Below are positions 7,405-64,000 of a stretch of DNA of 64,000 bases, piece by piece. The notes under the pieces are model-generated. The model did not search any database. It was not told the DNA's origin and was given only the letters and a program-made list of their open reading frames with translations. Both the position numbers and the translations under genes were made by a program. The stretch spans positions 682,001-746,000 of the forward strand of contig NZ_JAKZAJ010000001.1 of assembly GCF_023156285.1 (NCBI RefSeq). The letters run 5' to 3'. This DNA comes from Marinobacter koreensis (GTDB lineage: Bacteria; Pseudomonadota; Gammaproteobacteria; Pseudomonadales; Oleiphilaceae). Within the stretch, counting starts at the first letter, position 1. The number at the start of each line of letters is the position of its first letter.

Positions 7405-8742
7405 TCAGTTGGTAGCGGTATCCGAACCCTGGTCGGGACCTGTCGCGACCAATGACGCCGGATCCGTAGCGGCACGCATGAGCGCCAGTTGTTGGTGAAC
7501 CTGGGACTTGAAGGACGCGAGGTCTTTCCTCGGTACACTGGCCGCCGTGGGAATGTCCGCGGTCAGCGGGTTGACGGGACGTCCTTTAACGTGGAATTCA
7601 AAATGCAGGTGAGGGCCAGTGGTGCGCCCGGTGTTGCCGGATAGTGCGATTTTCTCGCCCCGTTTCACCCGCTCGCCCCGCTTCACCATGATCTTGCTCA
7701 GATGCAGATAGCGTGTCTCGAAAGACCCGTTGTGGTCGATGTCGATGTACTTGCCGGCATAGGGATGGTTGCCAATACGGGTGACAACGCCATCGCCGGT
7801 ACTCCGGACCGGTGTGCCGCTCGGAGTGGCCAGATCAACGCCATTATGCGGCGCGCGGCGGCCCGTAACGGGATGCAGTCGCTTCGGGTTGAAGGGTGAC
7901 GATACCCGGAAATGGCGGGCTGTCGGCCAACGCAGGAACGCCGGCAGGATGCTTTCGCCGTTTTCGTCGTAATAATTGCCATCGTTGTACAGGAAAGCAT
8001 TGTAGACGTGCTTGCCCCGGGAGAGTGATACCGCCTCGATGCGCATCTGTCCGGTCGCCTGATCCTCTTCCGTGATCTCGTGACCCAGCATAACGGCAAA
8101 GGTGTCTCCCGCTCGCAGGTCCCGCCGGAAATTGAGTTTGTTCTTTAGGAGGTGGCTCAGGCTGGCCACCTGCGCATCGCTCAGCCCGGCTTTCAGGCCG
8201 GAGGCGTAGAAACTGCCTCGTATCTCCCCGGTGAGAATCTGGGATTCCCAGTGGGTTTTGCTCTCCACCTGCTGGTGGATGAACGAGTCGTCGTCCTGTC
8301 GTACAAAGCTGACCTTGCGGGCCGGGTCCAGTTGCAGGTCCAGCGCCGTCAGCTGGTGTTCATCATTGTACCGGAAGGTAAGCACCTTACCGGGCATCAG
8401 GGTTTCGAGCGACAGATACTCTGAATCGGCCTCCAGAATGTGTTGGAGCAGGGCGGCGGGAATGCCCTTATCCTCAAAGATTTCGCTCAGGGTATCGCCC
8501 TTCTGGATTTCGTAATCGACCGCAAGCGGGCCTTTGGCGTCACCGTCGCTGTTGTCAGAGGACTGCGTTGTCCCGGTGGGAGAGTCATCGGAGACCAGGC
8601 TCTGGGGATCCAGCTTGAAGGTCGCCGGTGCCGGCACGGCGGTGGATTTGCCAGACACCCACATGCCCGCAAGCAGGACAAAGGCCATACTCACGGCAAG
8701 GGAAATTTTATGGGTGGGTGTTAAGCGACGTCGGGATTGCAT
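7405..8742 (-). CDS. M23-family murein endopeptidase (MepM-like)
   Basis: The 445-residue protein is a predicted periplasmic, membrane-anchored D,D-endopeptidase that opens peptidoglycan cross-links. It has an N-terminal hydrophobic anchor (about 12-30), a LysM-type segment (YEIQKGDTLSEIF, about 93-140), a central domain, and a C-terminal LytM domain with HNGVDLATP (HxxxD) and HLHFEFH (HxH), so the zinc ligands are intact. The ATG at 8742 is chosen over an in-frame GTG at 8763. An amidase gene lies 85 bp upstream on the same strand. Confidence 0.9.
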   Translation of the reverse strand: MQSRRRLTPTHKISLAVSMAFVLLAGMWVSGKSTAVPAPATFKLDPQSLVSDDSPTGTTQSSDNSDGDAKGPLAVDYEIQKGDTLSEIFEDKGIPAALLQHILEADSEYLSLETLMPGKVLTFRYNDEHQLTALDLQLDPARKVSFVRQDDDSFIHQQVESKTHWESQILTGEIRGSFYASGLKAGLSDAQVASLSHLLKNKLNFRRDLRAGDTFAVMLGHEITEEDQATGQMRIEAVSLSRGKHVYNAFLYNDGNYYDENGESILPAFLRWPTARHFRVSSPFNPKRLHPVTGRRAPHNGVDLATPSGTPVRSTGDGVVTRIGNHPYAGKYIDIDHNGSFETRYLHLSKIMVKRGERVKRGEKIALSGNTGRTTGPHLHFEFHVKGRPVNPLTADIPTAASVPRKDLASFKSQVHQQLALMRAATDPASLVATGPDQGSDTATN

Positions 8743-60540: not shown

Positions 60541-60605
60541 GGCCCGGTAGCCATACAGACGAACGACGGATGTCCCTCTCCTCGACAAAACGGGAGACGT
60601 CCGTC

Positions 60606-60998
60606 ATGTTCGACCAAATTTCTGCCTACCTTCCCTGGACCTTCGCGGCTGCGGCGTTCGTGTTGCTGTTTGTCCAGGGTATCCTTCATCGTCGTCAGGT
60701 TGAGCGGTTGCAGCGGTCCGTCAAGGAGCGTTGCGATATCCTTGGCAAGGAATTGCACGCCACCGCCAGTGGCAGTATGGGCATGGGCCAGCGCGTGGTT
60801 ACCTGCGAACGCCAGCTCCATGAACTGCGCACCGTTATCGACGAGATGCGCCAGAACGATCCCCTCCGGATTTCCTACGATGAAGCATCGCGCCTGGTTG
60901 ATCTTGGCGCCGATATCGACGATCTTATGAACACATGCGGTATATCCCGTCCCGAGGCCGAACTCGTGTCTGCTCTTAGGAAACGACAGGTGGCCTGA
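60606..60998 (+). CDS. DUF2802-like protein of the chemotaxis operon
   Basis: A 130-residue protein with an N-terminal transmembrane helix (FAAAAFVLLFVQGILH) and a helical, charged domain; the C-terminal ISYDEASRLVDLGADIDDLMNTCGIS is DUF2802-like. In Vibrio and Pseudomonas a DUF2802 gene also ends the cheW operon. The exact role is unknown. Confidence 0.8.
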   Translation: MFDQISAYLPWTFAAAAFVLLFVQGILHRRQVERLQRSVKERCDILGKELHATASGSMGMGQRVVTCERQLHELRTVIDEMRQNDPLRISYDEASRLVDLGADIDDLMNTCGISRPEAELVSALRKRQVA

Positions 60999-61024
60999 CT
61001 CTTCGACGTAATGGACGTTTGTGG

Positions 61025-63307
61025 ATGAAGAAGATCTCCCCGAGGGCCCAGGCGGCCCTCCTTGCTGTTTCCCGTCATGAATTCGTCGCCGGTTCCGATC
61101 TCACTCCTTCCATTACCGGCCACTCCATTCCCCGAGAAGAAATCGTTCAACACCTGCTGTCGCTGATGCCGGAAATCGAGCCGGACCAGACGGTCATGCA
61201 CGTGGGCGGCGGCTCCGGCTACCTGGCCGCGGTGTTGTCCGAATTGGCGCATCGGGTCATCTACGTGGAGCGTAATCCGGTGGTGGCGGAGGCAGCCCGG
61301 GCCCGTTTTTTCCGGCTCGGCATGCACAACGTGGACGTGATTGCCTCTGACATCGCCGACTTGCCCGCTCTTGATGACAACTGTGATCTCATCCTCTGTA
61401 CGACATTCGTACCCAAGCCGGAGATTATGGCGCCTTTTCTCCGGGAGGGGGGCTCGCTGCTGTGTCTGGAGGGGCGGGCCGGGCCGGTGCCCAGCCTGGC
61501 CATGTTTGAAAAGCGGGGTGAGGCACTGAACCGGGTCAGGACGCTGGGCTGGGTGGACTTCAACCGCAATGCGGAACAGATCCTGATCGATCTCGGGGTC
61601 ATCGACGAGAAAATGCTCGCCGAGGCCCGGACCGAGGCCGCAAAAAGCAACACCCGGGTGCTCGACCTGGTTCGTCGAAAGCTCAATCTCGACGAGATTG
61701 ACCTGTATCGTAAGCTGGCACAGCAACGTGGCATGACGTTCGTCGATGCCGAGGAACTGATGCCCCAATTGCAGCCGGCGCTGTTCCGACGTTTTTCGCG
61801 GACGTTCCTGGACTTGTCACGAATGGTTCCGGTCAGCGAGAGCGGCGGGCAGATCACTGTCATCACCGACGATCCCGATGTCCGGACCGATCAGCTTGAA
61901 CGACTGACACCCCAGTCTTCGATCCAATGCCTGTTGGTCACGCCCACGGATTTCCGGCGCATCTGGTCGTCCCTGGATCTGACCGCCAAGGGGCGTCAGT
62001 TCGTGGCCGATCATTCCCAGCCAACCGGAGAACAGCCGGAGCCAGCGCAGTCCCGCTCCGAGCCTCTGGGAGACGCTTCCGGCCATCACCATGTCAGCCC
62101 GTACCTGGTCTCCGTTTATGAGGCCATCCTGCTGGATGCCGTGAGCGAGAAGGCCAGTGATATCCATATCGAACAATACGACGAGCGGGTCCGGGTTCGC
62201 CTTCGGGTAGACGGCGAATTACACGACCTCCCGCAATACCAGCTAACGCCCCGCGAACTGCGCGGCGTTATCAATGTGATCAAGCTTCGGGCCGAGCTGA
62301 ATATTGCAGAACACCGATTGCCCCAGGGTGGTCGTTCCCAGCTCAAGATGGGCGACAATCGCTTTGACCTGCGGGTACAGACCCAACCATCCCTTCACGG
62401 AGAGCATGCGGTTATCCGGTTGCTTCCCCAGACCGGCCGGGCAATGACGATCTCGGAGCTGGGCATGTCCAGAGTGATTGGCGCCCGTTACCAGCGTTTG
62501 CTGGACAACCCGGCGGGACTGGTGTTGGTGGTGGGGCCAACGGGGTCGGGCAAATCCACGACCCTGTATGCCGGTCTCCAGACCCTGGCGGATGATGGCC
62601 GTAGAAAGGTGATCACCGTCGAGGACCCGATCGAATATTCGATCGACAACATTCAGCAGACCCGGGTTCGGGCCGACATCGGTTTCAGCTTTGCCGATGC
62701 CATGCGGGCCTTTGTCCGTGAGGATCCGGACGTCATCCTGGTGGGCGAGATCCGGGACCAGGAAACGGCCCTGGAGGCGATAAGGGCTTCCCAGACCGGG
62801 CACGTTGTGTTGTCCACGCTGCACTCCAACGATGCAGTGGATTCCTTGCAGCGACTCTATGATCTGGGGATTCACCCCAACTCCATCGCAGGCGAACTGC
62901 TGGCGGTTATTGCGCAGCGCTTGGCCAAACGCATCTGCACGCATTGCCGGCGGCCGGCAGAGCCGGAGCCGATGATCCTGTCGGAGCTGTTTCCGGACGG
63001 GGCGCCGGCGAATTTCCAGTGTTTCGAGGGCGAAGGCTGTGACAAGTGCAACGGTCGCGGAACGGTCGGTCGTGTGGCGATCGTCGAGTACCTTGAGGTA
63101 AATGCCGATATCCGGAACGCCATCTCCAGCCAGCCCCCCATAGGCGAGTTGCGCTGGCGCGCCCTGGACGCCGGCCTGATTACCATGCGTGACAGTGCCC
63201 TGGACCAGGTGATCGAGGGAATTATCCCCCTGTCAGAATTACCGCGTATCCTGCCCCGGGAGCGAATGGCTCCGGAAATCCGGGGCGGCCGCAGGAGTCA
63301 ACCATGA
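61025..63307 (+). CDS. Fusion of PCMT-like methyltransferase and GspE/PilB-type ATPase
   Basis: The 760-residue protein has three parts. Residues about 1-175 resemble protein-L-isoaspartate methyltransferase, with SAM motif I VMHVGGGSGYLAAVL (57-71) and VIYVERNP. Residues about 183-290 resemble the MshEN/GspE N domain. Residues about 360-760 are a secretion ATPase with Walker A GPTGSGKS (504-511), Asp box (DPIEYSI), Walker B (DPDVILVGEIRD), His box (STLHSNDAVDS) and zinc Cys pairs (638/641, 672/675). No pilus or T2SS genes adjoin. ATG 61025 has a weak ribosome site. It follows the DUF2802 gene by 26 bp and overlaps the next gene. Confidence 0.9.
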   Translation: MKKISPRAQAALLAVSRHEFVAGSDLTPSITGHSIPREEIVQHLLSLMPEIEPDQTVMHVGGGSGYLAAVLSELAHRVIYVERNPVVAEAARARFFRLGMHNVDVIASDIADLPALDDNCDLILCTTFVPKPEIMAPFLREGGSLLCLEGRAGPVPSLAMFEKRGEALNRVRTLGWVDFNRNAEQILIDLGVIDEKMLAEARTEAAKSNTRVLDLVRRKLNLDEIDLYRKLAQQRGMTFVDAEELMPQLQPALFRRFSRTFLDLSRMVPVSESGGQITVITDDPDVRTDQLERLTPQSSIQCLLVTPTDFRRIWSSLDLTAKGRQFVADHSQPTGEQPEPAQSRSEPLGDASGHHHVSPYLVSVYEAILLDAVSEKASDIHIEQYDERVRVRLRVDGELHDLPQYQLTPRELRGVINVIKLRAELNIAEHRLPQGGRSQLKMGDNRFDLRVQTQPSLHGEHAVIRLLPQTGRAMTISELGMSRVIGARYQRLLDNPAGLVLVVGPTGSGKSTTLYAGLQTLADDGRRKVITVEDPIEYSIDNIQQTRVRADIGFSFADAMRAFVREDPDVILVGEIRDQETALEAIRASQTGHVVLSTLHSNDAVDSLQRLYDLGIHPNSIAGELLAVIAQRLAKRICTHCRRPAEPEPMILSELFPDGAPANFQCFEGEGCDKCNGRGTVGRVAIVEYLEVNADIRNAISSQPPIGELRWRALDAGLITMRDSALDQVIEGIIPLSELPRILPRERMAPEIRGGRRSQP

Positions 63308-64000
63308 CAGACTCAAATCCTACTCTTGGACCCAAGGCGGCCCAGCGGGAGCCCGCCGAAGTAGTCTATGCCGATGAGCTGAAAAGGCTGGCGGAGACGG
63401 ACTCGGGGCCGGTGCCTCCCGGCTGGTTGCTCTCTCCCCGTGCGGTTGAAACTTTCGTGCTCGGGGATCCGGAACAGGGCATTGAACGGAAGTTCGTGGC
63501 CGACCGGGCCATGGTGATCCGGATTATCATCTCGCTATGTACCACACGTGGCTGTTTGCTGGTCGGGGAACCGGGAACCGCAAAATCCTGGCTCTCTGAA
63601 CTCCTGGCAGCAGCGATCTCCGGTTCGTCCACGCTGACCCTGCAGGGTGGCGCCATCAGCCAGGTAGGGCAACTGCTATACAGCTGGAACGAAGCCATAC
63701 TCAAACAGAAAGGGCCATGCCGTGAGGCTCTGGTGCCCAGCCCGCTGCTTCGGGGCATGATGGAAGGCCGGCTCGTTCGGTTCGAGGAAGTCGCTCGTTG
63801 CCCCCAGGCACTGCAGGATGCGCTGCTGTCGGTGCTGTCCGACCGGGTGGTGATCATTCCTGAACTCGAGGGTGAGGAGGGCGTCGTCCTGTCCCGGGAA
63901 GGGTTTAACGTGGTCGCCACGTCCAACAGCATTGACGAGGGCGTCCACGCCATGAGCGCCGCGCTCAAGCGCCGGATGGATTTTGAGGAGATTCGTCCGA
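63304..64000 (+). CDS. MoxR-family AAA+ ATPase, YehL-like (cut by window edge)
   Basis: The first 232 codons encode a MoxR AAA+ protein: Walker A LVGEPGTAKSWLSELLAAAI, ALVPSPLLRGMMEGRLVRFEE (Walker B region) and sensor-1 VVATSNSIDEGVHAMSAALK. The wording is close to the YehL subgroup. Such ATPases usually work with von Willebrand A proteins, which may lie just beyond 64000. The ATG overlaps the stop of the fusion-ATPase gene by 4 nt (ATGA), so the two are translationally coupled. Confidence 0.88.
   Translation, partial: MTDSNPTLGPKAAQREPAEVVYADELKRLAETDSGPVPPGWLLSPRAVETFVLGDPEQGIERKFVADRAMVIRIIISLCTTRGCLLVGEPGTAKSWLSELLAAAISGSSTLTLQGGAISQVGQLLYSWNEAILKQKGPCREALVPSPLLRGMMEGRLVRFEEVARCPQALQDALLSVLSDRVVIIPELEGEEGVVLSREGFNVVATSNSIDEGVHAMSAALKRRMDFEEIRP

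Follow-up and report, generated by a model that had tools for sequence, protein, structure and literature searches.

What does a PilB/GspE-type motor ATPase do when it is fused to an S-adenosylmethionine (SAM)-binding domain and its neighbour is a MoxR AAA+ ATPase gene and not a platform gene? The right-hand end of the window raises this question, the window being the whole 64,000-nucleotide stretch of Marinobacter koreensis DNA analysed here, which sits in a 3.78 Mb genome of 9 contigs whose nearest named relatives are Marinobacter. ORF (open reading frame) reading of the window finds a forward-strand frame (61025..63307, with an alternative TTG start at 61019) that encodes a 760-amino-acid protein we call FUS, directly followed by the gene for a MoxR protein of the YehL subfamily. 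The fusion architecture of FUS and its pairing with MoxR are near certain, and we tentatively propose that the pair provides an accessory motor for a pilus or secretion machine already in the cell.

Architecture of FUS

The original prediction, made from the letters of the window, held that one frame joins a PCMT-like domain, an MshEN-like domain and a complete GspE/PilB ATPase with its zinc Cys pairs, and all three domains score over their Pfam cut-offs (PCMT 39.9 bits against 20.3, MshEN 41.8 against 23.1 and T2SSE 364.2 against 24.9). From the N-terminus, FUS consists of a PCMT-fold SAM-binding domain (residues 1–180, 61025..61564), an MshEN/GSPII-like domain (residues 181–320, 61565..61984), the N2D of the motor ATPase (residues 358–470, 62096..62434), the RecA-type motor domain (residues 480–735, 62462..63229) and a C-terminal segment (63230..63304), all on the forward strand. 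The search for this domain order across genomes that had been suggested as a check was carried out on a set capped at 7998 candidates, and among the matches listed (the best 120 of 128) full-length relatives with identical domain order were found in several genera, so FUS is no frame or assembly artefact. In a tree, FUS forms one clade (support 100/100) apart from GspE, PilB, MshE, TfpB and HofB, with the long branches of the outgroup flagged.

Pairing with MoxR

The FUS stop codon TGA (63305–63307) overlaps the MoxR start codon ATG (63304–63306) in an ATGA, just as first read from the sequence, and the MoxR gene runs on the forward strand from 63304 to the window end at 64000 and on to 64413 in window numbering (L010:2805-3914), giving a full-length protein of 369 amino acids. 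The earlier label "YehL-like" is borne out by 50% identity to E. coli YehL over 353 amino acids, and the Walker A and sensor motifs are largely invariant in 57 full-length copies, which places the protein in the YehL subfamily. A scan of genome contigs gave 65 loci with a FUS relative (1.21 Mb in total), some cut by contig ends, and MoxR lies directly behind FUS in 64 of them, 60 by ORF and 4 by tblastn. The ATGA overlap is present in 46 of the 60 loci measured. Among 37 Marinobacter genomes forming our same-genus sample, three of them less than 90% complete, FUS occurs in 19 and a YehL-type MoxR in the same 19; the two genes therefore behave as the module that had been predicted. The two also diverge in step, with r = 0.97 across 55 loci and r = 0.95 across the 24 loci away from the main Marinobacter site. 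A limited literature search found no published description of this two-gene module.

The FUS-linked MoxR resembles YehL of the E. coli yehLMPQ system in overall identity and in its AAA+ motifs, but a tree built from 18 linked MoxR proteins and four others (three YehL proteins and P0215) puts it in a separate clade (98/98, long branches flagged), and its company differs too, as YehM, YehP and YehQ gave no match in the 65 loci at E 1e-4. YehP is present in 0 of the 37 same-genus genomes, the genome-wide search having been for YehP only, with YehM and YehQ not sought. G051 and G054, which belong to the same order, have yehL, yehM and yehP close together and no FUS. Judged by these comparisons, the pair does not appear to be a YehLMPQ system.

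The claim that the pair has neither pilus or type II secretion system (T2SS) genes nor a vWA gene for company holds directly beside it; T2SS, type IV pilus (T4P) and MSHA-like loci and a MoxR/Bat-type vWA cluster lie elsewhere. Reading the sequence past position 64000 for vWA genes, as had been advised, did turn one up: about 9–16 kb past the window end is what we take to be a Bat-type vWA cluster (L010:12933-19446), but it has its own MoxR gene and was rejected as a partner. A vWA gene also stands convergent behind MoxR in L086, L087 and L094. The ORFs beside it in L086 and L087 are presumably NorC-, NorB- and NorQ-like, and this vWA was rejected as well, because it seems to belong to a nor operon with its own MoxR (the Nor-like ORFs having been read in L086 and L087 only).

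Two single-frame fusions of FUS with MoxR, P0078 (846 amino acids, 3 contigs) and P0042 (772 amino acids, one source), were set aside. In both, the FUS and MoxR pieces meet at a short stretch that the two have in common, and portions are gone: the end of FUS and the Walker A part of MoxR in P0078, an internal section of FUS and two thirds of MoxR in P0042. We regard these frames as chimeras of the assembly or as deletions in decay. Separately, the FUS copy of L052 (G008:C1:452135-453109) is broken by an in-frame TAG into two ORFs, with a MoxR ORF after it.

SAM domain

SAM motif I of FUS (G61-G-G-S-G-Y66, 61205..61222 on the forward strand) has G61, G63 and G65 invariant in all 157 distinct FUS sequences over which residue and motif counts were made, and residue 82 is acidic (E or D) in the same 157. 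With its GxGxG motif, an acidic residue after strand 2 and a class I fold, the domain belongs with the SAM-dependent methyltransferase folds, and the doubt raised earlier over the SAM pocket is eased by finding the SAM motif intact on a PCMT fold. Since motif I and the acidic residue are kept throughout, the FUS SAM domain likely binds SAM.

FUS shares fold and SAM motif with PCMT but differs from it in being fused to a motor, in falling far short of the equivalog cut-offs of TIGR00080 (48.3 against 159.05) and NF001453 (66 against 188), and in one residue of the PCMT GQT(I/V)S stretch. The conserved Ser of that stretch has a catalytic role in PCMT, and the residue aligned with it in FUS is Pro36 in 157/157. 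Of eight stand-alone homologues found in these genomes, six have Ser at the position and two gave rows that could not be used (one ORF is truncated, one is in the wrong frame). Ser stands opposite Pro36 in the alignment with 1jg1 too; in the 4l7v alignment that stretch falls in a gap. The replacement of this Ser makes isoaspartate repair unlikely, and the domain is probably a PCMT-fold SAM domain that is not an isoaspartate repair enzyme.

Motor core and C-terminal tail

As an extension-type member of the T2SSE superfamily (PF00437), FUS combines its score over the Pfam cut-off with Walker A and B, Asp and His boxes and an extension-type fold. At the tested positions of Walker A (from residue 504, 504–510), the Asp box, Walker B and the His box, 157/157 distinct sequences have the same residue. 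The zinc pairs C638/C641 and C672/C675 are retained in 156/157, and the N2D arginines of extension motors are kept in FUS. In the structure prediction the ATPase half was poor in the full model, and the C-terminal half was modelled separately with a mean predicted local distance difference test (pLDDT) score of 79.6. Its closest solved structures are extension and secretion motors (Z 28.4–36.4 for PilB/PilF and 29.9–34.4 for GspE, against 28.8 for the best PilT), although the shorter length of PilT chains depresses their Z, and one PilF entry, at 28.4, lies within the PilT range. This ranking is among Foldseek's own matches only, and families outside that set may still be alike. FUS thus resembles PilB, GspE and MshE in its MshEN-like domain, N2D, RecA-type domain and zinc Cys pairs, but differs from them in its N-terminal SAM domain, its C-terminal extension and in having MoxR, not a platform gene, as its neighbour.

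Cyclic di-GMP (c-di-GMP)-binding MshEN domains carry two 24-residue motifs (PMC5013675). The published relaxed form of this motif is found in 0/157 FUS sequences, not even in one copy, by a pattern that detects one of the two copies in the genome's own MshE, and a looser element is present in 5 of 105. The domain therefore has no recognisable c-di-GMP motif, and control of FUS by c-di-GMP is not supported by its sequence.

The most conserved part of FUS is its tail. Mean conservation, taken unweighted over 105 sequences of which many are Marinobacter, is 0.93 for residues 736–757, 0.89 for the ATPase core, 0.73 for the MshEN part and 0.66 for the SAM domain. The C-terminal segment ends in an extension with the pattern LPxERMAPExRGG, present in 145/157 FUS sequences; 11 of the misses are close variants and the remaining one is the chimera P0042. 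The pattern was not found at the ends of the genome's own MshE, PilB and TfpB, nor of E. coli GspE and HofB. This conserved extension is a candidate contact for MoxR or for the platform. Locus L099, which has no MoxR, keeps RILPEERMA and loses PExRGG, which fits the tail as a handle for MoxR. The RGG codons lie just 5′ of the MoxR start and are perhaps kept by the MoxR ribosome site, which weakens that idea.

Platform proteins and other motors

Besides FUS, the genome encodes a T2SS GspE, a T4P PilB, an orphan TfpB and what we take to be an MshE-type motor in an MSHA-like cluster, the latter protein scoring under both cut-offs. GspE is over its cut-off in 35/35 genomes with FUS and PilB in 34/35 (at a strict limit of 1e-190, with the control positive in 0/14 genomes). 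The genome without such a PilB is G019, whose contig stops at 151,686, roughly 1 kb beyond PilC. Platform proteins are present in 32/32 FUS-bearing genomes tested (16 + 16) and in all 8 genus genomes that lack FUS. Counts of the platform domain PF00482 are alike in the two groups (mean 6.6 in 16 genus genomes with FUS and 6.9 in 8 without), and since no extra copy accompanies FUS, a dedicated FUS platform protein was rejected. Nine FUS-bearing genomes have only four PF00482 domains, in two genes (G007, G014, G019 and G021, and five of 16 further genomes). Without an extra platform, and with so few domains in these nine, FUS would have to share PilC or GspF.

Such sharing has a precedent in TfpB of Acinetobacter baylyi, an extra T4P extension motor that exists alongside a regular PilB and whose gene is not with pilC (PMC8213720). 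TfpB shares the T4P machine in Acinetobacter (PMC8213720; review PMC11656802). FUS is likewise a PilB-type motor away from pilC and alongside a regular PilB, but it stands in its own clade and has a methyltransferase domain. The TfpB of this genome (L124:7253-9052, contig C3 of G000), 599 amino acids long, scores 931.6 bits against a cut-off of 850; its NCBIfam match covers residues 16–595, so it has no room for a methyltransferase domain. It is not beside recognisable pilus genes and is thus a second orphan motor in the genome.

Proposed function and alternatives

Our analysis leans, with slightly less than even confidence, towards FUS being an accessory extension motor on a shared PilC or GspF, with MoxR assembling or remodelling FUS. 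FUS would assemble into a hexamer and turn the platform in the manner of PilB, GspE and TfpB, the platform would also serve the pilus or secretion system that the cell already has, MoxR would load, unload or mature the FUS hexamer, and the SAM domain may modify part of the machine or sense SAM. A more specific version, in which MoxR puts the FUS motor on and takes it off the shared platform in a SAM-gated manner with the LPxERMAPExRGG tail as its handle, seems to us unlikely in full. If the motor reading is correct, PilB and TfpB are joined by another type of extension motor, which within the range of our searches would be the first to carry a SAM-binding domain. We know of no client of a YehL-subfamily MoxR. 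The sections of the MoxR literature drawn on here name none for this subfamily either (PMC3893208). Through the pairing, a YehL-type MoxR is linked to a single candidate client in several families of gammaproteobacteria, making its target directly testable.

Several results count against an accessory motor. FUS falls below the equivalog cut-offs of the known motors, scoring 418 bits against 675.65 for PilB (TIGR02538), 408.3 against 630.25 for GspE (TIGR02533) and 348.8 against 850 for TfpB (NF053534). Eight queries (PilC, PilD, MshG, MshL, GspF, GspG, GspK and HofC) gave no match in the 65 loci, and the presence of platforms, GspE and PilB is a weak test because all are common in these genera. 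The pair is missing from 18/37 same-genus genomes and is therefore dispensable. In the sole locus without MoxR (L099:2222-7313, a metagenome-assembled genome (MAG) labelled Myxococcales, FUS identity 46%) an FG-GAP protein takes the place of MoxR. Finally, the links between FUS and a platform and between MoxR and FUS are predictions.

These points leave room for other explanations. The ATPase part could instead place an active methyltransferase at the base of a pilus or secretion machine, where a pilin, platform or partner would be methylated after MoxR exposes the substrate. We consider this plausible but unlikely, given Pro in place of the conserved PCMT Ser in every sequence, a SAM domain that is less conserved than the motor (0.66 against 0.89), the lack of a substrate gene accompanying the pair, and a model that is poor at residues 23–33, near the active site. 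A PilB-like ring might also have been reused away from pili and secretion, FUS and MoxR then forming a stand-alone stress or quality-control machine with no platform. The lack of an adjoining pilus or T2SS gene in 65 loci and the patchiness of the pair at its home site would suit this, as would the finding that MoxR proteins mature diverse complexes (PMC3893208), but the motor domains keep the parts of an extension motor, including the zinc Cys pairs and N2D arginines, and platforms are present in all 32 genomes tested, and we judge it improbable. A c-di-GMP-controlled motor of the MshE kind is very improbable in view of the motif search above, in which the pattern found one of two copies in the genome's own MshE and none in FUS.

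A tie to the chemotaxis operon, raised in the original prediction, has fared poorly. At the main Marinobacter site the pair lies 20–26 bases behind the DUF2802 gene of the che operon (60570..60998 on the forward strand), which is the left border of the site and outside the module, and the pair and the operon are probably co-transcribed. A chemotaxis- or flagellum-coupled surface machine would fit this arrangement, but the pair is kept in five Marinobacter genomes in which flagellin gave no match (G001, 99% complete, and G058–G061) and in three such Wenzhouxiangella genomes (G066, G068 and G071), the last seven, for which completeness is not given, being among 16 further genomes tested for flagellin. 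Conversely, 15 Marinobacter genomes with flagellin have CheW and DUF2802 in place and lack the pair, and its neighbours in other genera are unrelated, making such coupling highly improbable. Still harder to credit is an anti-phage defence module that combines an AAA+ protein with a methyltransferase. Patchy presence, a weak match of the methyltransferase part to mad2 (54.2 bits) and two P-loop matches near 22 bits speak for it, but the PADLOC search gave nothing for MoxR at E 0.001, no defence family was found among the neighbours scanned (17 + 4 proteins) and there is no plasmid match at E 1e-15.

Genomic sites and distribution

In the window's genome, MoxR is followed past the window end by a convergent gene and then by others, which we take to be FliK-like and ccm genes, respectively. 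The surroundings of DUF2802 were read in 30 loci, from 35 genomes with a match. FUS is the next gene in 15 of these, and in the other 15 FliK comes next after a gap of 309–359 bases with no pair. On a tree of the DUF2802 region, the presence of the pair needs 7 changes, at least 4 of them forced by well-supported branches. A close Marinobacter pair, G006 with and G016 without exactly these two genes, provides a natural knock-out: the two flanks, of 5.0 kb and 7.3 kb, are 98.3% and 97.2% identical, and the genomes differ by a 3,378-base segment containing FUS and the whole of MoxR except its last codons, which G016 retains as a scar. No such scar of MoxR codons was found at the other 14 empty sites.

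Neighbours vary between genera, with che and ccm genes in most Marinobacter and unrelated genes in Wenzhouxiangella, Alishewanella, Rheinheimera, Halopseudomonas and others. In L076 and L070, FUS and MoxR of Marinobacter segnicrescens cluster with those of a MAG labelled Halomonas and not with other Marinobacter, and they occupy a different site; based on this grouping, transfer of the pair as one unit is likely. Six Marinobacter loci with no che genes at the site (L042, L043, L059, L062, L065 and L098) have a FleN-like gene directly upstream of FUS, and the genomes of L042, L059, L062 and L065 gave no flagellin match. GGDEF/EAL-type genes occur near the pair, in three arrangements, in 7 of the 33 loci outside the main Marinobacter site (L079:7065-9968, L083:7061-9937, L095 and L103:13855-16311, L101:7679-9841, L105:7646-9814 and L078:7064-8785). 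A domain scan covered L079, L095, L101 and L105, of which L101 and L105 are without a GGDEF signature. The ORF in L078 is shorter, and the gene in L079 overlaps FUS by 4 bases.

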